A DNA stretch of 64,000 nucleotides from Paracoccaceae bacterium (lineage in GTDB: Bacteria > Pseudomonadota > Alphaproteobacteria > Rhodobacterales > Rhodobacteraceae), in contig JAKVCO010000006.1 in NCBI GenBank assembly GCA_022448245.1, positions 248,001 to 312,000 on the forward strand. The letters are read 5' to 3'. The position numbers were made by a program, and so were the translations under genes. The notes under the pieces were generated by a model. It searched no databases. It was given only the letters and a program-made list of their open reading frames with translations, and had not been told where the DNA came from. Below, in pieces: positions 42,678 to 57,587 of this stretch (positions are counted from its first letter, which is position 1; every line of letters starts with the position of its first letter).

Positions 42678-44261
42678 TTAGTAGACGTCTTTCACGTAGC
42701 GGCCTTGGCGGCGCAGCTGCGCCAACCGATCTTCGGCATACCGCTCCGTCATCTGGCCGTGCTCCGCGATGATACGCACGAGCGTCGCCTCAACATCCAG
42801 CGCCATGCGCTTGGCATCGCCGCAGAGATAGATATGGGCCCCGGCCTCGATCGCTTGCCAAAGGGCTGCGCCGTCTTCGGCCATCAGGTGCTGTACGTAA
42901 GTCTTCTGCGCGCCATCCCGTGAGAACGCGAGGCGCAGGTGACTGAGAGCGCCAGAGGCCTCAAAACCCACAAGCTCCTCCTCATAACAATGATCGCAAT
43001 CTCGGTTACGGTCGCCAGTATAGAGCCAGGTTTCGCCCTTAGCCCCCGCCGCGTAGCGTTCGGCCAGGAAACCAAGATAGGGCGCGATTCCGGTGCCGGG
43101 ACCTACCATGATCATGGGCACATCGGGCGCAGGCACGCGGAAACGTTTGTTCGGGATCGGGAAGAGGCCTGCCGTCTCACCCTCCTCTAGCCGGTCGGCG
43201 AGGAAGGTGGAGCAGACACCGCCATAGCTGCGCTCATTCTCCCACCGCACGGCGGCGACGGTCAGATGCACTTCATCGCCGTGGCACACAGGTGTGGAGG
43301 CAATGGAGTACGACCGGTGCTGGAGCGGGCTAAGAAGCGGGATCAGGATGTCCGCCCCGACGACGAGGCGCGGATCGATGTTGAGCACGTCGATCACGTC
43401 CTTGCCCCAGAAGTAGGCCTCATATTCCTCCCGCGTTCCATTCAGCGCGGCTTGAAGATCCGCGTCCTGCACCACAGCGCCCACGCCATCGATGAGCGCC
43501 TTCGACGGCGTCAGAATCTCCAGGCGTGAGGTCAGCAGTTCGCCCAAGGGCACGTCATAGCCCGGCAGGCGCGTGACCCATGTCTTGTTCAAACGGCGCA
43601 GGAACTGTTGGACGAGCTCCGGATCGTTCTTGGGCACGATGCCCACACAATCGCCTGCCTCGTAGGTCAGGCCCGAGCCCTCAAGCGAGAGCACGATGTG
43701 GCGCATGTCTTTGGTCGAACCCTCTCCCGAAAGCTTCCGGTTTTCGAGAATGGGTGCCGGGAACGGGTTGGTGCGCGACCACACCTCTTCTTCCTCTTCC
43801 TCGGTCAAAGCCTCCACGCTGACGACCTCGCCACCGCCTGCCATGGGGATCGCAGCCTCTATCCAGGCTTGCGCGTCTTTTTCGTAGTTCAGATCGCAGT
43901 CCACGCGGTCTACGCGACGGGTGGCGCCGCAGGCCTCCAGCATCGCATCGATATCTTTGCCCGCTTGGCAGAACTGTTCGTAGGCCGTGTCGCCCAGAGC
44001 GAGCACGCCGTATTTCAGGCCCTGAAGCACGGGTGGCGCGGCCTCGATCTCGTCCCAGAAGAGCTCCGCGTTGAAGGGCATCTCGCCTTCGCCGTAGGTC
44101 GACACAACGATGAGCACATCATCCATCGTGGCGAGGTCATCCATCGAGACCTCATCAAGCTCAGTAATGTTAACGTCATGCCCCCGCGCACGAGCGAGTT
44201 TGGCCGCAGAGCGAGCCAGGTTTTCAGCGGTGCCGGTGACGGAGCCGAACAAGATATTCAT
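42678..44261 (-). CDS. Diflavin reductase, sulfite reductase alpha/CPR-like
   Basis: 527 residues from ATG 44261 (AAGGGG upstream). N-terminal flavodoxin domain (ILFGSVTGTAENLARSAA, STYGEGEMPFNAELFW, LALGDTAYEQFCQAG), then a FAD domain with RSYSIAST and GVCSTFLADRL, and an NADPH domain with MIMVGPGTGIAPYLGFL, YLCGDAKRMALDVEATL and a C-terminal VKDVY. The fold is that of CysJ and P450 reductases. No hemoprotein subunit (CysI) or P450 is adjacent, so its electron acceptor is unknown. A promoter with a TTGACA box and a palindrome lies upstream. Confidence 0.88.
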   Translation of the reverse strand: MNILFGSVTGTAENLARSAAKLARARGHDVNITELDEVSMDDLATMDDVLIVVSTYGEGEMPFNAELFWDEIEAAPPVLQGLKYGVLALGDTAYEQFCQAGKDIDAMLEACGATRRVDRVDCDLNYEKDAQAWIEAAIPMAGGGEVVSVEALTEEEEEEVWSRTNPFPAPILENRKLSGEGSTKDMRHIVLSLEGSGLTYEAGDCVGIVPKNDPELVQQFLRRLNKTWVTRLPGYDVPLGELLTSRLEILTPSKALIDGVGAVVQDADLQAALNGTREEYEAYFWGKDVIDVLNIDPRLVVGADILIPLLSPLQHRSYSIASTPVCHGDEVHLTVAAVRWENERSYGGVCSTFLADRLEEGETAGLFPIPNKRFRVPAPDVPMIMVGPGTGIAPYLGFLAERYAAGAKGETWLYTGDRNRDCDHCYEEELVGFEASGALSHLRLAFSRDGAQKTYVQHLMAEDGAALWQAIEAGAHIYLCGDAKRMALDVEATLVRIIAEHGQMTERYAEDRLAQLRRQGRYVKDVY

Positions 44262-44293: not shown

Positions 44294-44336
44294 AGTGTAA
44301 CGCATGGAGGCCATGGCGTGTCAATCCAGATTGACA
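44294..44336 (-). promoter_or_regulatory. Promoter of the diflavin reductase with TGT-N12-ACA palindrome
   Basis: On the minus strand a TTGACA -35 (44324-44319) is followed after 19 bases by TACACT (44299-44294). The -35 is embedded in a near-perfect 18-base palindrome TGTCAATCTGGATTGACA (44336-44319), which fits TGT-N12-ACA. The same -10 and the same 19-base spacing occur at mvaA, and TGACACTAT is shared with that promoter. CrtJ/PpsR uses TGT-N12-ACA; other regulators are possible. Confidence 0.5.
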
Positions 44337-45611
44337 CTATCCATGATCGAGCTCCTGACGTTCCTGCCTACCGAGCACGTAGAGCGTGATCGCCGTCACC
44401 ACCACACCCGAAAGCAGGTAGAGCGATGCGGCCCAGAGCCCGAAGGCCCATGTCAGACCAAGGCCTGCGAGGGGGGCAAAGGCTGCCCCAAAAATCCAAG
44501 ACAGGTTCGTCGCCAGCGCCGAGCCGGAGTAGCGGAAGCGCTTGGGGAAGCGCCCCGGCACGATGGAGGAGGCCTGCCCGTATGAGAAACCGAGCAGGAT
44601 AAAGCCCAAAATAATGTAGATCGCCGGGTTCGAATCAAGCGTCGTAATCGTCAAGCAAAGCAAGACGATAGCCAGCGTCACCGCCCAATGGACAACGCGC
44701 TGCCCCACCTTGTCGGCGATAAAGCCGGAGGCAATCACCGTGACGATGCCAAAGCCCGCACCGATGAGCTGCCAGAGCAGGATCGTCTCGATAAAGACAG
44801 ACCCATAGAGCAGCTGGTAGGCCAGCGGAAAGATCGTGACCATGTGAAAGAGCGCGTAGGATGCGATGGGCAAAAGTGTGGACAGAACGATCGGGCGCCA
44901 CTGAGTTGTGACGAGCTCCCAGAATGGGGCCATTTTAAAGCTGTCATCGTCACCACCGAAATCTGTCTGAAGCAGACGGATGCGGGCAAAAAGGCTCACC
45001 ACGTTCACAGCCATCACGGCAAAGAACGCAAAGCGCCAGCCGTATTGGTAGAACTCCTCAACTGTCAGAAAACCTGTCAGCACGAAAAAGAGCGAGGCCG
45101 CCACGGCGAAGCCAAAGGGACCACCGAGTTGGGCCACCATGGCATAGCGCGCCTCATAGCCTTCAGGCGCCGCGTTGCGAAGCTGGAGGGTGATCCCGTC
45201 CCAGCCGAGACCAAGGCCCACACCTTGAGCGATGCGCAAAGCGATCAGCGCCGCCGGCGCCGCCCAACCGATCCGCTCATAGCCCGGCAAGAGGCCAATC
45301 GCGACGGTGGACGTCCCCAAAATGAAGAGGGCGATGGTGATTTTGGCGATCTTGCCGATGCGCCGCTGAATGGCGCGCCCACCTAGCTGGGCGAAAGGTC
45401 GCACCACGAACGCGATGGCGAAGGTGACGAAGGCCAACATCGTGCCTTCAACGGCGCCAACCATCGGGAAGAAGAGCTGCGGGAACACCAAAACGCAGGC
45501 GATCCCGTAGACAAAGAACCCGAAAAAGTCGGTCACCCGCGACATAATCACCGTGGTGATCACCTCATCGAGGGTGGCGGTGTGTTCGTGTGTCGCACTG
45601 GACTCTGACAT
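44337..45611 (-). CDS. MFS transporter, metabolite:H+ symporter type
   Basis: 424 residues, twelve hydrophobic segments. AFVVRPFAQLGGRAIQRRIGKIAKITIALFILGTST contains the family loop 2-3 motif, and ALRIAQGVGLGLGWDG follows. The C-terminal half has FIADKVGQR. The overall look fits the MHS subfamily (shikimate/alpha-ketoglutarate/proline-betaine-like), but the substrate is not predictable. It stands alone between the diflavin reductase and the divergent quinol oxidase operon; its upstream region holds a PhaR-like site and a TGT-N12-ACA element. Confidence 0.82.
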   Translation of the reverse strand: MSESSATHEHTATLDEVITTVIMSRVTDFFGFFVYGIACVLVFPQLFFPMVGAVEGTMLAFVTFAIAFVVRPFAQLGGRAIQRRIGKIAKITIALFILGTSTVAIGLLPGYERIGWAAPAALIALRIAQGVGLGLGWDGITLQLRNAAPEGYEARYAMVAQLGGPFGFAVAASLFFVLTGFLTVEEFYQYGWRFAFFAVMAVNVVSLFARIRLLQTDFGGDDDSFKMAPFWELVTTQWRPIVLSTLLPIASYALFHMVTIFPLAYQLLYGSVFIETILLWQLIGAGFGIVTVIASGFIADKVGQRVVHWAVTLAIVLLCLTITTLDSNPAIYIILGFILLGFSYGQASSIVPGRFPKRFRYSGSALATNLSWIFGAAFAPLAGLGLTWAFGLWAASLYLLSGVVVTAITLYVLGRQERQELDHG

Positions 45612-45642: not shown

Positions 45643-45722
45643 TGTCTGCTCTACCTTACATAGCGCGGGAAACAAGGACGCAACGTCCAGCGGGTGCGTG
45701 GTTTTGTTGCAGTGCAGCATTA
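45643..45722. promoter_or_regulatory. Divergent intergenic region with PhaR-like site and TGT-N12-ACA
   Basis: Between the MFS gene (start 45611, minus) and cyoA (start 45830, plus). On the minus strand at 45721-45706 reads ATGCTGCACTGCAACA, which differs at one of 16 positions from the phasin-promoter site ATGCTGCATTGCAACA. At 45643-45660 is TGT-N12-ACA, 32 bases before the MFS start; on its own this is weak, since the pattern occurs by chance about once per 4 kb. No convincing core promoter was fixed for either gene. Confidence 0.45.
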
Positions 45723-49978: not shown

Positions 49979-50709
49979 CCGAGGACGACCCGCGCCGCCC
50001 CCTTTGGGTCGACGCAACAATCCTGATCTCCGCCTTCATCGTCTTTGTGGTCATGGTAGGCTTGGGCAACTGGCAGATGCAGCGGCTCGCATGGAAGCTT
50101 GATCTGATTGAGGCGGTAGAGACACGGGCCTTCGCGCCCGAGGTTCCCGCACCTTCAGGCCCCGTCACGGAAGTATCTGACGAATACACGCGCGTCGAAG
50201 CCACCGGCACATTAGACTATGCCGAGACGCGCCGCGTAAAGGCGGTGACGGACCTTGGGCTGGGTTTCTGGCTCATGACCCCGCTTGAGACACCCGCTAA
50301 GACGATCTGGGTGAACCGAGGCTTCATCCCTCAGAATTTCGACGGCGTGGTGCAGGAGCCCGAGGGGCCCCAACGGGTCACCGGCCTCCTGCGCTTCACT
50401 GAGCCTGAGGGCACACTCCTTGAGAGCAACGACGCCGCCGCAGACCGCTGGGTCGCGCGGGATATCGCGGTGTTGTCGGATGTCGCGGGCCTGACGAGCG
50501 AGCCCTACTTCATCGACGCCGATCACCTGACTGCGCCGGGCACCTTCCCGCGCGGGGGGCTGACGATCGTGGGTTTCCGCAACTCTCACCTCAGCTACGC
50601 GCTGACGTGGTACGCCATGGCGTTGCTCTTCGCGGCGGGCATGGTCTACGTGATCTGGGACCGGGTGCGCGCCCGCAAGCGGCGGCCACGCCTCGTCTAC
50701 GGCGAGTAG
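49975..50709 (+). CDS. surf1: SURF1 family assembly factor of the quinol oxidase
   Basis: 244 residues with a membrane segment at each end (ILISAFIVFVVMVGLGNWQMQRLAWK and YALTWYAMALLFAAGMVYVIW) and the SURF1 motif IWVNRGFIP in the periplasmic loop. SURF1 proteins help insert heme a into subunit I. In Paracoccus denitrificans a dedicated Surf1q is encoded with the ba3 quinol oxidase. Translational overlap with cyoD implies the same here and suggests that this oxidase carries heme a. Ends convergent with mvd (13-base overlap). Confidence 0.88.
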   Translation: MTEDDPRRPLWVDATILISAFIVFVVMVGLGNWQMQRLAWKLDLIEAVETRAFAPEVPAPSGPVTEVSDEYTRVEATGTLDYAETRRVKAVTDLGLGFWLMTPLETPAKTIWVNRGFIPQNFDGVVQEPEGPQRVTGLLRFTEPEGTLLESNDAAADRWVARDIAVLSDVAGLTSEPYFIDADHLTAPGTFPRGGLTIVGFRNSHLSYALTWYAMALLFAAGMVYVIWDRVRARKRRPRLVYGE

Positions 50710-51683
50710 CCGAAGGGATCGATGATCTCCGCCGCCGGGAAAAGGCGGCGCACGTCGGCCCCTGCTTCCTTCAGGAAGATCAGCTTTACATTGGCACCGG
50801 CGTCCATCGTGGCATAGGCCTCAAGCCCCTCCGCGCGGGCCTGCCAGAGCGCCTCCAGCACCTGCCAGCTCCCTGCCTTGAGGTAAGTCAGCGCCGGGCG
50901 CGCGGCCATCATCGTGGCGTGCATGGCCAGCGCATTCGCCTCCGCCAACGCGCCGAGAGTCGCGAAATCCTGTGCGCGGACAGCGGCCTCGATCGCCGCG
51001 CAGTCGGCCTCTGCCCGATCCGGCCATGGGGGAAAGAGCGGTGACGTCGCCACCGTATGGCCCATCCCATCGCGGGAGCTCTGCGCCTTCGGGCCCGTAT
51101 CCACCTTGATCAGCGCGATGCGAAAATCGAGCCAGGGCGCCTCCACCGGCACCGCAAAACTGTCCATACCCGCCGGGTCCGCGCCCCGATCCCACCGCAC
51201 GAAACCGTGCCAAAAGGACCGCGTCGCAGAGCCCGATCCATAGCGCGAGAGCATGCTTTGCTGAGCCTCGGGCAGGCTAAGCGCAAAGGCCCCGTCAATC
51301 GCCTTCGTCAGCGCGGCAAAGCCAGACGCCGACGAGGCGAGGCCAGCAGCCGTGGGAATGGTATTCACCGTCTCCACCCGCACCGGCAGCGTCTGCCCCC
51401 GGCGGAAGCGGTCGAGATAGGCCACCACTTTCGTGGCGAAACTAGAGGCGGGGTCGAGCACCTCGCCGTTCAGCGACACCTCATCCCGGTCAGCGGGCAG
51501 GATCGTCGTCGTCGTCCCCCATTCCGCCAAGGAGATCGACAGCGAGGAGTTCAGGGGCAAGTTTAGGCCCGCGTCGCGTTTGCCCCAGTACTTCGACAGG
51601 GCGATGTTTGAGGGCGCGTAGGCCGTGGCCTCCTGCGGCGCCGGCAACTGGGCCGGCAGCACGGCGTCAAATGCATCAGTCAT
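50697..51683 (-). CDS. mvaD: Diphosphomevalonate decarboxylase
   Basis: 328-residue GHMP-kinase fold enzyme converting mevalonate diphosphate to isopentenyl diphosphate. The family start YAPSNIALSKYWGKRD with its substrate-binding residues is followed by NLPLNSSLSISL, TAAGLASSASGFAALTKA (phosphate loop), GSGSATRSFWHGFVRW with the catalytic region and TMDAGANVKLIFL. Last gene of the operon mvaA-hcs-mvk-pmk-mvd, overlapping pmk by eight bases. Confidence 0.92.
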   Translation of the reverse strand: MTDAFDAVLPAQLPAPQEATAYAPSNIALSKYWGKRDAGLNLPLNSSLSISLAEWGTTTTILPADRDEVSLNGEVLDPASSFATKVVAYLDRFRRGQTLPVRVETVNTIPTAAGLASSASGFAALTKAIDGAFALSLPEAQQSMLSRYGSGSATRSFWHGFVRWDRGADPAGMDSFAVPVEAPWLDFRIALIKVDTGPKAQSSRDGMGHTVATSPLFPPWPDRAEADCAAIEAAVRAQDFATLGALAEANALAMHATMMAARPALTYLKAGSWQVLEALWQARAEGLEAYATMDAGANVKLIFLKEAGADVRRLFPAAEIIDPFGYSP

Positions 51684-52548
51684 GGATCACGAGCCCCCTC
51701 TCCGCGACCTTAGCCCGTTCCCAGCCGTGGGGCACGCCGCCAAAGGCAAGCACGCAGTCGCCGAGCCCAGAGCCCGAGATCTTGGCGGCCAGCGCCTGCC
51801 CACGGCCTTCCTCCACCAGCTTGTCGAGATCCGTGTTCGAGACACCAAGCTCCTCCATCAGCGCCTGATAGGCGTCGAGAGCCGCCGACATAGCGGTCCA
51901 ATCCCGCGCGCGGGCGGCCGCAATCGCAGCCTCGCTGGAGGCCCCCATTCGGGCATAGAGCGCCTTCACATCGCGTTCCTCCCACGCGTCGGCAACTTGG
52001 GCGAGGACCTCACCGGTGGGTGTCTTGTAACCCACGTATTTCAGCGAAAGCGCGGGCGGCATTGGCAAACGCTCAGGCCCCCGCCCCAACTGATACCTCA
52101 CGAGCCCACCGTGGAGCGACGCCGCCAGGTCCGCGCCAGAGCCTCGCCCCTGGATCGCTTGAACGATGGCGAGCGCTTCGGCGTGGAGATCTGCCTCCCG
52201 CCCCGTATGCACCGCGAGAGCGCCAAGGCAGGCGATGGTCACGGCCGCCGATGATCCAAGCCCCAGCGTGGGATCAATGGCGGAAACCGTCTCGATCTCC
52301 ACACCCGTCTCAAGCCCCATGGACAGCGCGCAGGCTTGCACGAAGCGCAGCGGCCCTGTGGGCGATAGCTCCGAAAGCGGGACATCCAATTCCCCAAGCG
52401 ACGATCGCACGACAACGCGATCATCCGCACGCGCCGTGACGGTCACGCGGGCACGTTGTTCGACGGCAGCAACGAGGGAAGGATGCCCATAGACCACCGC
52501 GTGTTCGCCGGTGACCATGACGGAGCCGGGCGCTGAGGCCGTGATCAT
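51676..52548 (-). CDS. pmk: Phosphomevalonate kinase, Paracoccus type
   Basis: 290 residues, GHMP kinase: ASAPGSVMVTGEHAVVYGHPSLV, the ATP loop PTLGLGSSAAVTIACLGAL, IQGRGSGADLAASLHGG and KISGSGLGDCVLAFG. The sequence could be mistaken for a second mevalonate kinase. Its position after mvk and its similarity to the Pmk I recall from the P. zeaxanthinifaciens operon make phosphorylation of mevalonate-5-phosphate the likely step. Overlaps mvk by four bases and mvd by eight. Confidence 0.85.
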   Translation of the reverse strand: MITASAPGSVMVTGEHAVVYGHPSLVAAVEQRARVTVTARADDRVVVRSSLGELDVPLSELSPTGPLRFVQACALSMGLETGVEIETVSAIDPTLGLGSSAAVTIACLGALAVHTGREADLHAEALAIVQAIQGRGSGADLAASLHGGLVRYQLGRGPERLPMPPALSLKYVGYKTPTGEVLAQVADAWEERDVKALYARMGASSEAAIAAARARDWTAMSAALDAYQALMEELGVSNTDLDKLVEEGRGQALAAKISGSGLGDCVLAFGGVPHGWERAKVAERGLVIHD

Positions 52549-53660
52549 TGCGCAGGCAGCGCCACGGGCGCGGGCTCAACCAGATGCGCGCCGTCCATGG
52601 AGACGCGCAAAGGCTCCCACCGGCGCTCCGGGTAACTTTCCATCAGCGTGGCCATTGCCTCGGGGTCGTCGAGACGTACGAGCACAACGCCCGCAGCCTC
52701 CCCCCGTACAGCGCCCGCGCCGGAGACCTTGGCCGCACCGCCCAGTGCCTCCACGGCAGCTGCAAAGCGCGAGGCAGGTTGTGGGACGACGCCGATCTTC
52801 TCAAGAAGCGCTTGGTTTGTCTTCATCACCTCGCGGGGGTCGTCATCGACAGCGATGACCTCGGCGAAGGCATCGGTGACGGCCTCGAACTCCTGCCAGA
52901 GGGCCTGATCCTGGCCATGCGCCTCCCGAACCTTCTGAACGCACTCACCGGTCTTCGACACGGGCGTGCCCAGCTGAACCCAGTACCAGCCGTCGGTGTT
53001 GAGAGAATGGTCCGCTGAGAGCGCCAGCGGCGTGACGCTATCGCCCTGCACGCGGTTGAGGCCGCCAAAGACCACGGCGGAGGCATCGATGGCAGAACCT
53101 TTGCCGTGCTGCAGGCGCTCGCAAAAACGGACCTTCTCGAACCGCTGCTGCGTGGTCTGCTCCTGCCCGAGGAGGTGTTCATAGAGCACGATCGTGGCTG
53201 CCACGACGGCCGCGGAGCTGCCCATACCCGCGCCAAGCGGCATGTCGGACTTCGACGAAAGCTGCCCCGGCACCGGCAAACCGCGCGAAGACGCGCCCGG
53301 CAGGGGGATCATCGGCAGAAGCGACGTCAGCGTGTAGATCGCCAGATCGTCAGGCCGCTGGAGGACCTTCTGCACCGGCATCTCGCCCCGCATGAATTGG
53401 TCGAAACGCGCGTCCAGACCTTCCTTAAAGCTCTTCAGAGCCTCGAATGGGTAGAAGGCCGAGGGCGAGAGGGATTCGAATGCTGTGAACAGCCCACCGG
53501 TCTTGTGGAGCGGCGTGAACGTCACCTCAGTGAAGTGCTGCACGGCCACGGCAAGCGCCGGCGCGCCGTAGACGACGGCGTGCTCCCCGCTGAGGATCAG
53601 CTTGCCCGGCGCGCGGGCGGCCGAGACGTTAGACCGCTTCGTAGTGACGCTTGTGCTCAT
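52545..53660 (-). CDS. mvk: Mevalonate kinase
   Basis: 371 residues. GHMP motifs: RAPGKLILSGEHAVVYGAPALAVAV at the N-terminus, DMPLGAGMGSSAAVVAATIVLYEHL for ATP binding, LQHGKGSAIDASAVVFGGL with the catalytic aspartate, and GGAAKVSGAGAVRGEAAGVVLV. An N-terminal stretch overlaps the end of hcs by 32 bases; later in-frame starts are not obvious, so the long overlap may be real. Converts mevalonate to mevalonate-5-phosphate. Confidence 0.92.
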   Translation of the reverse strand: MSTSVTTKRSNVSAARAPGKLILSGEHAVVYGAPALAVAVQHFTEVTFTPLHKTGGLFTAFESLSPSAFYPFEALKSFKEGLDARFDQFMRGEMPVQKVLQRPDDLAIYTLTSLLPMIPLPGASSRGLPVPGQLSSKSDMPLGAGMGSSAAVVAATIVLYEHLLGQEQTTQQRFEKVRFCERLQHGKGSAIDASAVVFGGLNRVQGDSVTPLALSADHSLNTDGWYWVQLGTPVSKTGECVQKVREAHGQDQALWQEFEAVTDAFAEVIAVDDDPREVMKTNQALLEKIGVVPQPASRFAAAVEALGGAAKVSGAGAVRGEAAGVVLVRLDDPEAMATLMESYPERRWEPLRVSMDGAHLVEPAPVALPAQ

Positions 53661-54786
53661 GGATCCGGGCGAGACGATAGCGCCCGCGGGCGACTTGCGC
53701 CATCACTGCCTCGCTGCCGTCGGTGGGATCGGGCGCGTGGCGGAAAGCGAGATATTCATCGTAGTTCAATGCCACCCGGTCCTCGAGCAGCTTGCGGTGG
53801 TGCGCGATCATCAGGTGATCGCGGTAGCCCGGCTGCACAACAGCCGAGAAGAACTCAGCCACCGCGCCAGAGCCGTAAGAGAACATGCCCACAGGACGGT
53901 TTGTCAGATCGATGTCCGTGTTCTCGAGCATGGAGATCAGCGACAGGTAGAGCGAGGCCGCGTAGCAGTTCCCCACCTCGCGGTTATAGACCATGCCGGA
54001 TTCAATCAGGTTCACGTCGTTCTGCGCTTCATTTAGCTTGCTCAGATGCGCATGCGCCTTCGAGCCCATCCGCGTGAACGGGATGTGGTAGCAGAACTGC
54101 GCCATCTCATTGAAGGCACGTCCGCCTTGGGCCACGTAATCCTGCCAAGCATTCGCCAGAGAGTGCAGGTACTTCACGGTAGAGTATTTGCCATCAACGA
54201 GCGGCGTCTTGCGGTAGTTCGGACGCCAGAAGTCCATGATGTCTTCAGAGTGGCAGCCGGTGGCGGTGTCGAGTTCCATCACGCGCGGGTTCGCGCTGAC
54301 GAGCATCGCCACAGCACCGCAGCCCTGGGTCGCCTCGGCGGGGCTATCGACATCGTAACGGCTCACATCGGACGCAATCACGAGCACCTTGCGATCGGGC
54401 TTGCGCGCCACATGGCCAGCCGCGAGCTGGAGGCCCGCTGTGCCGGAGTAGCAGGCGTGCTTGAGCTCTACGACGCGCACATTCGATGGCAGATCGAGGA
54501 GCTTGTGCACATATACACCCGCCGCTTTCGATTGGTCGATGCCGGTCTCGGTCGCAAAAAGGACCGTGTCGATCTTTTCGGCATCTTCAGCTGTGACGAT
54601 CGCGCGGGCGGCCTCGGCGGCCATGGTCACCACGTCTTCGTCATGGGCCGGAAGGGCAATCTTGTTCTGGCCAATCCCGCGAGAGAACTTGGCCGGATCG
54701 ATCCCCTGACGTTCGGCCAGCGTGCCCAGCGACATGTAGTGCTGGGGGACATAGAAGCTGAGTTTGTCGATGCCGATTGCGGTCAT
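53629..54786 (-). CDS. hcs: Hydroxymethylglutaryl-CoA synthase
   Basis: 385 residues. Condenses acetoacetyl-CoA with acetyl-CoA. The catalytic glutamate is in FATETGIDQSKA (residue 80), the acylated cysteine in ELKHACYSGTAGL (residue 112), and the histidine in FCYHIPFTRMGSKAHAHL. These match bacterial HMGS (MvaS). It follows mvaA by nine bases; in the Paracoccus operon, as I recall it, an idi gene sits between these two, and it is absent here. Confidence 0.94.
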   Translation of the reverse strand: MTAIGIDKLSFYVPQHYMSLGTLAERQGIDPAKFSRGIGQNKIALPAHDEDVVTMAAEAARAIVTAEDAEKIDTVLFATETGIDQSKAAGVYVHKLLDLPSNVRVVELKHACYSGTAGLQLAAGHVARKPDRKVLVIASDVSRYDVDSPAEATQGCGAVAMLVSANPRVMELDTATGCHSEDIMDFWRPNYRKTPLVDGKYSTVKYLHSLANAWQDYVAQGGRAFNEMAQFCYHIPFTRMGSKAHAHLSKLNEAQNDVNLIESGMVYNREVGNCYAASLYLSLISMLENTDIDLTNRPVGMFSYGSGAVAEFFSAVVQPGYRDHLMIAHHRKLLEDRVALNYDEYLAFRHAPDPTDGSEAVMAQVARGRYRLARIHEHKRHYEAV

Positions 54787-54795
54787 GGGACCCTC

Positions 54796-55833
54796 CTATC
54801 CGCGCTCCATCTTGAAATGGGTGCGCATGAGTTCGCCGGGGTTGGTTTGAGCTGCGAGGAGCGAGAGCTCGCCGCAGAGCACGGTCGCCGCGCACATGAC
54901 CGCAAGGCGCTGAGCGTTTTCGCCCGGCGCACGGTCTTCTTTGCAGCCCATGCGGGTGAGGTTTGCTTCCACCGTCTCGTTGCCCTTGCCGGAGCCCACG
55001 GACCCCATGATGAGGTTGGGCAGTGTGCAGGAGAAATAGAGGCTGTCGGGTCGCGCTTCGACATGGTTCATGCCTTGGCTGCCCTCGATTATATTTGCCG
55101 CGTCCTGGCCGGTGGCCAGATAGAACGCCAGAAGCATATTGGCGTAATGCGCGTTGGCCGACCGCAGGGAGCCTGCGATGATGCCACCGATCAGGTTCTT
55201 TTCAGTGTTCAGCTGGGCCATCTTTTCCGGCGTGGTGCGGAGCGTTTTCTCACACACGTCGCGGGGGATCTCGATCTCGGCTACGACGTATTTGCCGCGT
55301 CCGTGGAGGCCGTTGACCGCGCTGACCTTCTTGTCGGTACAGAAGTTGCCCGAGATCGAGGAATACTCGAGCTGCGGATATTCTTGCAGGAGCCAGCCCA
55401 TCACAGCGTCAGCGGCGCCGGTGACCATGTTGTGGCCCGAGGCGTCGCCTGTGCTGCACTCAAAGCGGATGAAGAGCAAATTGCCCACCACTTGGCGGTT
55501 CATCTCGATGAGCTGCGCAAAGCGGGAGGTCGTGGCGATAACGGCCTGAAGCTCCTCATTGCGGCCCTCGATGGACTGCCACGCAGCAAACGCCTCGGAG
55601 GCGTCTTTGGCACGCAGGATGACGGAGCGCGTCATACGCTCGTCCACCAGCGTGCAGCGGATACCACCACACTTTCGGCTCACACGTGCGCCCCGCCCCG
55701 TCGACGGCCAAAGCGGCGTCTCATACGTCGCCATGGGCACGGTGGCCTCTTCGTTCATCACGTTGCCCGTGATTGAAATAGGGCCAACCCATTGCGTCGG
55801 AATGGGGGTGAGCTCTTGCGTGTGTTGCTTCAT
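54796..55833 (-). CDS. mvaA: Hydroxymethylglutaryl-CoA reductase, class I-like
   Basis: 345-residue soluble catalytic domain. Class I signatures are seen: STGDASGHNMVTG (NADPH region), SGNFCTDKKVSAVNG with the catalytic lysine, EKNLIGGIIAGSLRSANAHYANMLLAFYLATGQDAANIIEGSQG, GSVGSGKGN and a C-terminal histidine in LMRTHFKMERG. It lacks the eukaryotic membrane anchor. Commits HMG-CoA to mevalonate and leads the operon. The promoter upstream has tandem TGT-N12-ACA elements. Confidence 0.93.
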   Translation of the reverse strand: MKQHTQELTPIPTQWVGPISITGNVMNEEATVPMATYETPLWPSTGRGARVSRKCGGIRCTLVDERMTRSVILRAKDASEAFAAWQSIEGRNEELQAVIATTSRFAQLIEMNRQVVGNLLFIRFECSTGDASGHNMVTGAADAVMGWLLQEYPQLEYSSISGNFCTDKKVSAVNGLHGRGKYVVAEIEIPRDVCEKTLRTTPEKMAQLNTEKNLIGGIIAGSLRSANAHYANMLLAFYLATGQDAANIIEGSQGMNHVEARPDSLYFSCTLPNLIMGSVGSGKGNETVEANLTRMGCKEDRAPGENAQRLAVMCAATVLCGELSLLAAQTNPGELMRTHFKMERG

Positions 55834-55883
55834 TGTCGTCTCCCAGGCGGCGGACTGTGTGCGGACGGCCCGGCTAGACCTAT

Positions 55884-55926
55884 AGTGTAAACTTGATCTG
55901 ACACTATGTGTCCAGAAAATTTTACA
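55884..55926 (-). promoter_or_regulatory. mvaA promoter with tandem TGT-N12-ACA operators
   Basis: Minus-strand -35 TGGACA (55914-55909), 19-base spacer, -10 TACACT (55889-55884), about 50 bases before the mvaA ATG. Two 18-base elements of the form TGT-N12-ACA cover it: 55909-55926 over the -35, and 55886-55903 over the spacer and -10. Their centres are 23 bases apart. ATAGTGT/ACACTAT adds a 7-bp dyad to the second. This matches the CrtJ/PpsR consensus, but the regulator is not in the window. The remainder of 55834-56105 shows nothing else clear. Confidence 0.55.
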
Positions 55927-56105
55927 CTGCGCTTCCGTGCCTTCCTATCATACCTGTTACGTCCGACATGGTGTGCCGGACCTCTGATTTCCTTCGCCAA
56001 ATCGCCGCAGGCTTCGGGTTCGTCTGAACCCTAAATCGCCTCAAGGTTCAATAGTCCCGCTACGTATCAAGCGCTTGTGCCGCGCCCCGCGCGCGCGGCA
56101 GCCCT

Positions 56106-57587
56106 CTACTTCAGCCTGTCGAGAAACGCTTCCGCGTTTGAGAGATGCGTCTGCATCTTGGCCTCATCCATTTTCTCGGCAGTGCGCACCATCATGGCCC
56201 AGCGCGGATTGCCGCCGAGCTCCTCCCTGTGCTGCCAGATGAAGCGCCAATAGAGGCCGTCCCACTTCTCCGCCCACGAACCGGGTTTCCAGTTCGACAT
56301 CTTCTTGATGTAGTTGGAGCCCGAGAAATAAGGCTTCGTGGTGATCAACCCGCCATCGGCGTGCTGGCTCATCGCGTAGGTGTTAGGCACCATCACCCAA
56401 TCGTAGCTGTCGATGAACATCTCCATGAACCAGCGGTAGACGTCATCGGGGTCGATCTCGCACAGGAACATGAAGCCGCCGAGCACCATGAGACGTTCAA
56501 TATGGTGGCAGTACCCGGTTTTGAGGATGCGATGGATCGTGTCGTCGATGGGATCAATGCCCGTGGTGCCATCATAGAAACTCGCAGGCATCTTGCGCGT
56601 ATGCTTCCAATGGTTCGTGGTCCGCATCTGGACGTGCAGATCTTCATAAGTGGCGCGCATGAACTCGCGCCAGCCGATGATCTGCCGAATGAACCCTTCG
56701 AGCGAGTTCAGCGGCACGTCATGCTCTGCCGCATGGGCAAGCGTGGCGGCGAGAATCTGTTTCGGCGTCAGGAGGCCTGTGTTGAGCATCGGCGTCAGAA
56801 CCCCGTGCCAAAGCCAGCTCTCCCCGCGGACAACCGCATCCTCATAGTCGCCAAACAGGGCAAACCGCTGGTGGAGAAACTTCTGCAGCCAGAGCGCTGC
56901 GCCAGCGTGGGTTGTCGGATAGATCAGCCGATCGACCGACCCAATGGCGTCAAAGTCACTGAGGCTATCGCGCGCTGCCTCGTCGATCTCGTCATGCTCG
57001 ACATCCGGCAAACGCGGGATCGAGGAGAGCATCTTTGCCGGCACTTTTTTGCGATTATACTCGTCAAAGGACCACTGGCCGCCGTGAGGCTCATCCCCGT
57101 CCATGAGCACATCTAACCGACGGCGCTGCGCCTTGTAGTACTCGGCCATGAACCACTTCTTTTTGCCGCGCTGGTTGGCGCGGTTGTCCTCAGCGGTGTT
57201 GAGGAAGCCTGGGGTGTCGAGAAGCTCAAGCTCCACATCGCTGGCGGCGGCTGTCAGGCGCTTGGTGAGGGTGTGATCAACCGGATCACACAGCCGGACT
57301 TTTGTGACTCCCTCACCCTCAAGACGCTTGATCAAAGCGGCAAGGAGGCCGGTGTCCGCCCGATACGTCTCCACCTCGACATGGTGACCGGCCTCACGCA
57401 GGCCAGCCGCGAAATGTGCCATGGTCGCGCGGTGGTACCACAACTTCTGGCGGTGGAAGCGCGCCGGGTACTGCGGATCACCAAAGAAAAGCGGCTCCTC
57501 CACAAACACAACGCGCGCGGGTGCTTGCGTCAATGCAGGGTGATCTGCAAACAATTGGTGAGGGAATATCAGTGCGGCGGTTGACAC
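56106..57587 (-). CDS. Photolyase/cryptochrome-related protein (FeS-BCP-like, cluster ligands mostly missing)
   Basis: 493 residues. The N-terminal DUF523-like alpha/beta domain (LIFPHQLFADHP) and FAD domain (LEGFIRQIIGWREFMRATYE, TGYCHHIERLMVLGGFMFL, YDWVMVPNTYAMSQHADGGLITTKPYFSGSNYIKKMS) belong to the bacterial FeS-BCP/PhrB group. In PhrB-type enzymes the last block is followed by CxxC and a third cysteine; here that segment reads NWKPGSWAEKWDGLYWRF with none. Only the cysteine in GYCHH remains. Role may be (6-4) lesion repair or light sensing. It lies 272 bases upstream of mvaA on the same strand. Confidence 0.82.
   Translation of the reverse strand: MSTAALIFPHQLFADHPALTQAPARVVFVEEPLFFGDPQYPARFHRQKLWYHRATMAHFAAGLREAGHHVEVETYRADTGLLAALIKRLEGEGVTKVRLCDPVDHTLTKRLTAAASDVELELLDTPGFLNTAEDNRANQRGKKKWFMAEYYKAQRRRLDVLMDGDEPHGGQWSFDEYNRKKVPAKMLSSIPRLPDVEHDEIDEAARDSLSDFDAIGSVDRLIYPTTHAGAALWLQKFLHQRFALFGDYEDAVVRGESWLWHGVLTPMLNTGLLTPKQILAATLAHAAEHDVPLNSLEGFIRQIIGWREFMRATYEDLHVQMRTTNHWKHTRKMPASFYDGTTGIDPIDDTIHRILKTGYCHHIERLMVLGGFMFLCEIDPDDVYRWFMEMFIDSYDWVMVPNTYAMSQHADGGLITTKPYFSGSNYIKKMSNWKPGSWAEKWDGLYWRFIWQHREELGGNPRWAMMVRTAEKMDEAKMQTHLSNAEAFLDRLK

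Follow-up and report, generated by a model that had tools for sequence, protein, structure and literature searches.

In front of mvaA, the first gene of a mevalonate operon, lie two closely spaced palindromes of the TGT-N12-ACA form, which raises the question of whether isoprenoid precursor supply in this bacterium is governed by PpsR (CrtJ), the repressor of photosynthesis genes. Both palindromes are exact matches with centres 23 bases apart, as given in a preliminary description of this DNA, and 5 bases lie between them. The upper one, at 55909-55926 (minus strand) of the window, i.e. the whole 64-kb stretch of DNA analysed, reads TGTAAAATTTTCTGGACA on the mvaA strand and begins 93 bases 5' of the mvaA ATG. 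The lower one, at 55886-55903 (minus strand), reads TGTCAGATCAAGTTTACA and begins 70 bases 5' of the ATG. The pair occupies the gap between mvaA, which starts at 55833, and the directly upstream photolyase-related gene (56106-57587; PF04244, 160 bits), which ends at 56106, both genes being on the minus strand. A photolyase-like protein, as judged by its sequence start, is also encoded downstream of the mevalonate genes in the related locus L006 (15179-16759).

The palindromes had been described as covering the -35 and -10 elements of the mvaA promoter. The hexamers, read from the sequence, are indeed present on the minus strand, the upper palindrome overlapping the presumed -35 TGGACA (55909-55914) and the lower one the presumed -10 TACACT (55884-55889). 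However, the spacer between them is 19 bases and a sigma-70 consensus scan of 55780-56120 found no promoter, and for these reasons the position of the mvaA promoter under the palindromes is inferred only.

The operon downstream comprises five genes on the minus strand. It starts with mvaA for HMG-CoA reductase (54796-55833; TIGR00533, 287 bits, below the curated cut-off of 441.8), followed by mvaS for HMG-CoA synthase (53629-54786; TIGR01835, 510.6 bits, over the cut-off) and two genes for GHMP kinases (52545-53660 and 51676-52548), each a mevalonate or phosphomevalonate kinase (TIGR00549, 127 and 144 bits, respectively, below the cut-off of 163). The last gene is mvaD for diphosphomevalonate decarboxylase (50697-51683; TIGR01240, 256 bits, over the cut-off). 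As gaps or overlaps between the genes are at most 32 bases, the five genes are likely transcribed together from the mvaA promoter.

PpsR-type sites in the genome

The reading of the palindromes as PpsR sites depends on a ppsR/crtJ gene and a photosynthesis gene cluster, and the genome (G000; 3.71 Mb, 93% complete) contains both. A single match to PpsR/CrtJ over the cut-off (TIGR02040, 482.8 bits; cut-off 275.4) is encoded at C2:98561-99877, inside the cluster, where ppsR lies beside a gene for a B12-binding protein among bch, crt and puf genes.

Two matrices were used to score the palindromes. Matrix one consists of 21 photosynthesis-cluster sites from five relatives, none of them an mvaA site or a site of the genome studied here. 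From a set of 53 TGT-N12-ACA hits in six relatives, its rows take 19 of the 21 hits marked intergenic and two marked inside ORFs, with none from the genome G402; they were chosen by eye, and the matrix is biased towards the motif. Matrix two consists of 12 of the 19 ChIP-seq rows (rows 1-11 and 13) for PpsR of Rhodobacter sphaeroides in Table 2 of PMC4344238 (here and below, published work is cited for those parts of each paper that were available). The lower and upper mvaA sites reach 24.3 and 20.0 bits with matrix one and 22.2 and 19.2 bits with matrix two, respectively, and by the latter both are among the best three in the window. Under both matrices, the mvaA sites score like real PpsR sites.

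Genome-wide, a refined degenerate pattern gave 34 forward and 29 reverse matches, whereas its reversed control gave only 7 and 5, respectively. The matches represent 47 distinct places. The best of these is the lower mvaA site and the upper one comes eleventh, and 11 of the 47 reach 20.0 bits (as rounded). The pattern requires A or C at position 4, and T plus G or T at positions 14-15 on one strand; hence, PpsR sites that do not fit these fixed demands went unranked. An 18-position sequence-only covariance model (0.905 bits per position), which the pattern replaced, had returned no hits in the genome, a result without meaning since the model is too poor in information for searching 3.7 Mb.

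Other high-scoring places flank bchF/ppaA, bchG, bchC, crtD, crtI/crtA, hemC/hemE and a V4R-domain gene, and at bchC the sites form a tandem pair with centres 26 bases apart. Some strong sites adjoin genes without a known link to photosynthesis, such as that for a HAD hydrolase, and the ORF adjoining one of them might, at a guess, be sulfotransferase-like. Together, the strong sites look like a PpsR regulon that includes mvaA. Individual sites seen elsewhere in the genome are one of 23.4 bits by a V4R-domain gene (L183, 2036-2053), one of 20.6 bits by genes for an NAD(P)H-binding protein and a fatty acid hydroxylase (L187, 1951-1968) and one of 16.5 bits just 3' of a DNA photolyase gene (L180, 2034-2051).

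The window includes a further PpsR-type site at 44319-44336 (22.1 bits with matrix one and 23.1 bits with the ChIP-seq matrix), which is 58 bases upstream of a gene for a CysJ-like diflavin reductase (42678-44261, minus strand). This gene is likely a second PpsR target in the window. At 13 loci with homologues of the reductase gene, the two closest have an upstream PpsR-type site (24.5 bits in L144 and 25.4 bits in L145), and the other 11 have none of at least 12 bits. In L007, the reductase gene adjoins the mevalonate genes. A weaker PpsR-type site (15.7 bits with matrix one and 16.4 bits with the ChIP-seq matrix) is found at 45643-45660, between an MFS transporter gene (44337-45611, minus strand) and cyoA (from 45803, plus strand) of a ubiquinol oxidase operon, whose CyoA product scores over the cut-off.

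Conservation and alternative readings

A site of at least 14 bits is present within 350 bases upstream of mvaA at 3 of 80 loci (L005, L006 and L007), which are the three closest mvaA relatives (81-84% identical). L005 has two sites of 22.4 and 16.5 bits, also with 23-base spacing, L006 a single full site of 24.8 bits and no dyad, and L007 a 27.3-bit site with a weak second one of 12.1 bits. In the four diverged upstream regions, the sites are retained and the bases around them are not. Comparison of the upstream regions of mvaA orthologues, put forward earlier as a means to confirm or dismiss the elements, gave a divided answer: the sites recur in the three closest relatives but not in the more distant L016, L013 and L088, where no site above 7.3 bits was found within 600 bases upstream even though the genomes have pufM and PpsR. 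Conservation is confined to a close clade. The four site-bearing mvaA genes form one branch (support 92/91 in the tree as drawn and 99/96 when set against the groups compared) and therefore count as one event. Control common to distant HMG-CoA reductases was considered and dropped, 20 further loci (L089-L108, 34-39% identity) having no site of at least 14 bits in the DNA available for them.

A comparison of other genes took in 15 alphaproteobacterial genomes that have this mvaA, namely G000, the 13 genomes behind L005-L016 and L018, and G056. Seven of them have pufM (G000, G394, G395, G396, G402, G405 and G056), and a site precedes mvaA in four of these seven versus none of the eight without pufM. 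PpsR over the cut-off is encoded by G000, G394, G396, G402, G405 and G056, as well as by a congener, G230, and was found neither in G395 nor in the eight mvaA genomes lacking pufM. G395, the genome of L006, therefore combines the site and pufM with no PpsR match. It shares a 118,056-base contig with G264, which is 77% complete, and is probably the same genome in an incomplete assembly, so the missing PpsR may be a gap. For G402, the genome of L013, the presence of ispH and pufM on contig C12 and a type 2 isomerase on C540, in addition to a mevalonate operon, suggests that the bin may mix two organisms.

As to chance, the preliminary description had expected one TGT-N12-ACA match every 4 kb, a rate that proved too high for such GC-rich DNA: the genome has 281 in 3.71 Mb, or one per 13 kb. 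The window shows no enrichment of the bare motif, with 9 seen versus 6.63 expected from shuffles, 19 of 100 of which reach 9. For bare pairs 18-45 bases apart, the expectation is about 0.6 per genome. Given how common the bare motif is, the core alone proves little and the full sites are the unusual part. Against a third-order Markov background (200 Mb; models trained on DNA of this genome, the sites themselves included), 0.037 sites of at least 24 bits and 0.43 of at least 20 bits are expected per genome. Among the 23 best places of the genome, the expectation for a close pair is about 0.004. Chance resemblance of the mvaA palindromes to PpsR sites might draw on the counts for the bare motif, and on the bare cores that also precede mvaA in L012 (-359) and L018 (-150), albeit with low matrix scores; set against the expectations for full sites and a close pair, and against the retention of the sites in close relatives, it is barely credible.

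The pair might alternatively serve another regulator whose palindrome is similar, or be one large dyad for another protein, as the two sites together are roughly symmetric (outer TGTAAA...TTTACA, inner GACAC-N3-GTGTC) and G395 has a site with PpsR not found. Yet the scores match those of PpsR sites from photosynthesis clusters and ChIP-seq, L006 manages with one full site and no dyad, and G395 has pufM and is probably incomplete, all of which makes another protein very unlikely. Binding of PpsR at mvaA with little effect on mva transcription also has points in its favour. A good PpsR site need not be functional, since 2 of the 15 R. sphaeroides PpsR ChIP-seq operons have strong motifs and show no expression change (PMC4344238), and full repression of an essential pathway is impossible. 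Silent or weak binding is nonetheless improbable: the sites and the presumed promoter overlap, and in four diverged upstream regions the sites have persisted where the bases around them have not.

Thus, the two elements very probably represent a tandem operator of the bchC type, through which the genome's own PpsR/CrtJ would act on the promoter of the mva operon.

Isoprenoid supply and its proposed control

The pathways to isopentenyl diphosphate (IPP) were surveyed in 16 genomes, the 15 mvaA genomes and the congener G230. Only G230 has dxr, and it gave no mvaA match at the search threshold; ispH occurs in G230 and the doubtful G402. Neither dxr nor ispH was found in the 93% complete assembly of G000, and judged from these two genes, mevalonate seems to be its only IPP route. 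A dxs gene downstream of puf has been reported for the Roseobacter clade (PMC3176799); dxs follows pufM in G230, and G000 has no dxs-sized ORF after pufM. A 21.0-bit PpsR-type site lies about 50 bases before ispH of G230 (L196, 1449-1466). It is a single example, as no such site precedes the only other ispH, in G402, or dxr of G230.

The mevalonate route yields IPP only, and therefore an isomerase is needed. Type 2 isomerase scores over the cut-off in 9 of the 16 genomes, and is below it or absent in the four site-bearing genomes, G230, G399 and G401 (210 bits, below the cut-off). Type 1 isomerase is over the cut-off in four (G000, G230, G394 and G396, the last with a second, weaker match), and neither type was found in G395 and G399. 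An isomerase gene is retained inside the mevalonate operon of more distant relatives, as in L016. The mva operon of G000 has none between mvaA and mvaS, and the sole isomerase over the cut-off in this genome is encoded by idi at the end of an apparent operon bchG-ORF-bchP-idi, in which idi and the end of bchP share four bases. The middle ORF is taken as pucC from its position; NCBIfam gave no confirmation. This operon starts at a PpsR-type site, bchG beginning directly behind a 20.9-bit site at C2:99989.

For mvaA, the binding of PpsR, the position of the promoter, the direction of control and the signal are all inferred. PpsR bound to both palindromes would keep RNA polymerase off the mvaA promoter. 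Light or redox would release it, with the B12-binding protein whose gene adjoins ppsR as a probable modulator, and mevalonate flux would then rise together with the enzymes of bacteriochlorophyll and carotenoid synthesis. With mevalonate as the apparent sole IPP route in G000, control of the mva operon should be partial rather than on/off, and repression would be relieved when the photosynthesis genes are switched on.

In evolutionary terms, we lean towards regulatory capture after pathway replacement, in which the MEP pathway would have been lost and a mevalonate operon adopted, its own isomerase dropped for the idi of the bchG-bchP operon, and PpsR control gained, the order of these events being our reconstruction. 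The whole supply of IPP and DMAPP would then come from two PpsR-type promoters, one inside and one outside the photosynthesis cluster. Because the MEP-using congener has a PpsR-type site before ispH, control may have outlasted the exchange of enzymes.

Comparison with known systems

The site type is known, and users of the MEP pathway are already known to couple their isoprenoid supply to regulators of photosynthesis. What appears new is the mevalonate target and its evolutionary setting; no report of PpsR control of a mevalonate operon was found in the available parts of the open-licence literature, which is weak evidence of absence. The prediction is that, in a bacterium lacking the usual pathway, a photosynthesis repressor governs the apparently sole source of isoprenoid units. 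If true, the supply for quinones and cell-wall lipids shares a switch with pigment synthesis, and the locus offers a natural case of how a regulator follows function when enzymes are replaced by unrelated ones. Terpene work in phototrophs would also gain a candidate mevalonate promoter responsive to light or redox.

The closest known arrangement is that of bchC in Rhodobacter capsulatus, where one CrtJ palindrome covers the -35 and another the -10, 8 bases apart (PMC5362033, PMC6199135). Two closely spaced TGT-N12-ACA palindromes are common to both, whereas here they are 5 bases apart, the target is a mevalonate operon and the promoter is a presumed one. The PpsR regulon of R. sphaeroides determined by ChIP-seq (PMC4344238, Table 2) has the same type of site, and bchC, the bchG operon, bchF/ppaA, crtI/crtA and hemE are flanked by high-scoring sites in the present genome as well; unlike here, the 15 operons given there include none for IPP supply. 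In Dinoroseobacter shibae, a relative in the Roseobacter group, bchF-lacZ increased more than twofold in the dark when ppsR was lost (PMC10890935).

The mevalonate operon of Paracoccus zeaxanthinifaciens, mvaA-idi-hcs-mvk-pmk-mvd, includes its isomerase gene, and that species is said to make IPP by the mevalonate route alone (PMC6742980). The gene order is equal to that found here apart from idi, as here there is no isomerase gene between mvaA and mvaS, and no type 2 isomerase reaches the cut-off genome-wide. This comparison covers gene order only, the PpsR-type sites before mvaA being a feature of the present genome.

In MEP-using phototrophs, isoprenoid supply is likewise tied to photosynthesis regulators (PMC3176799, PMC4263372, PMC6697705): DxsA and Dxr are given as targets of PrrA (PMC4263372), and PpsR is said to inhibit MEP-associated genes (PMC6697705). 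There the MEP pathway is under control, whereas here an unrelated pathway would have its own PpsR-type operator.
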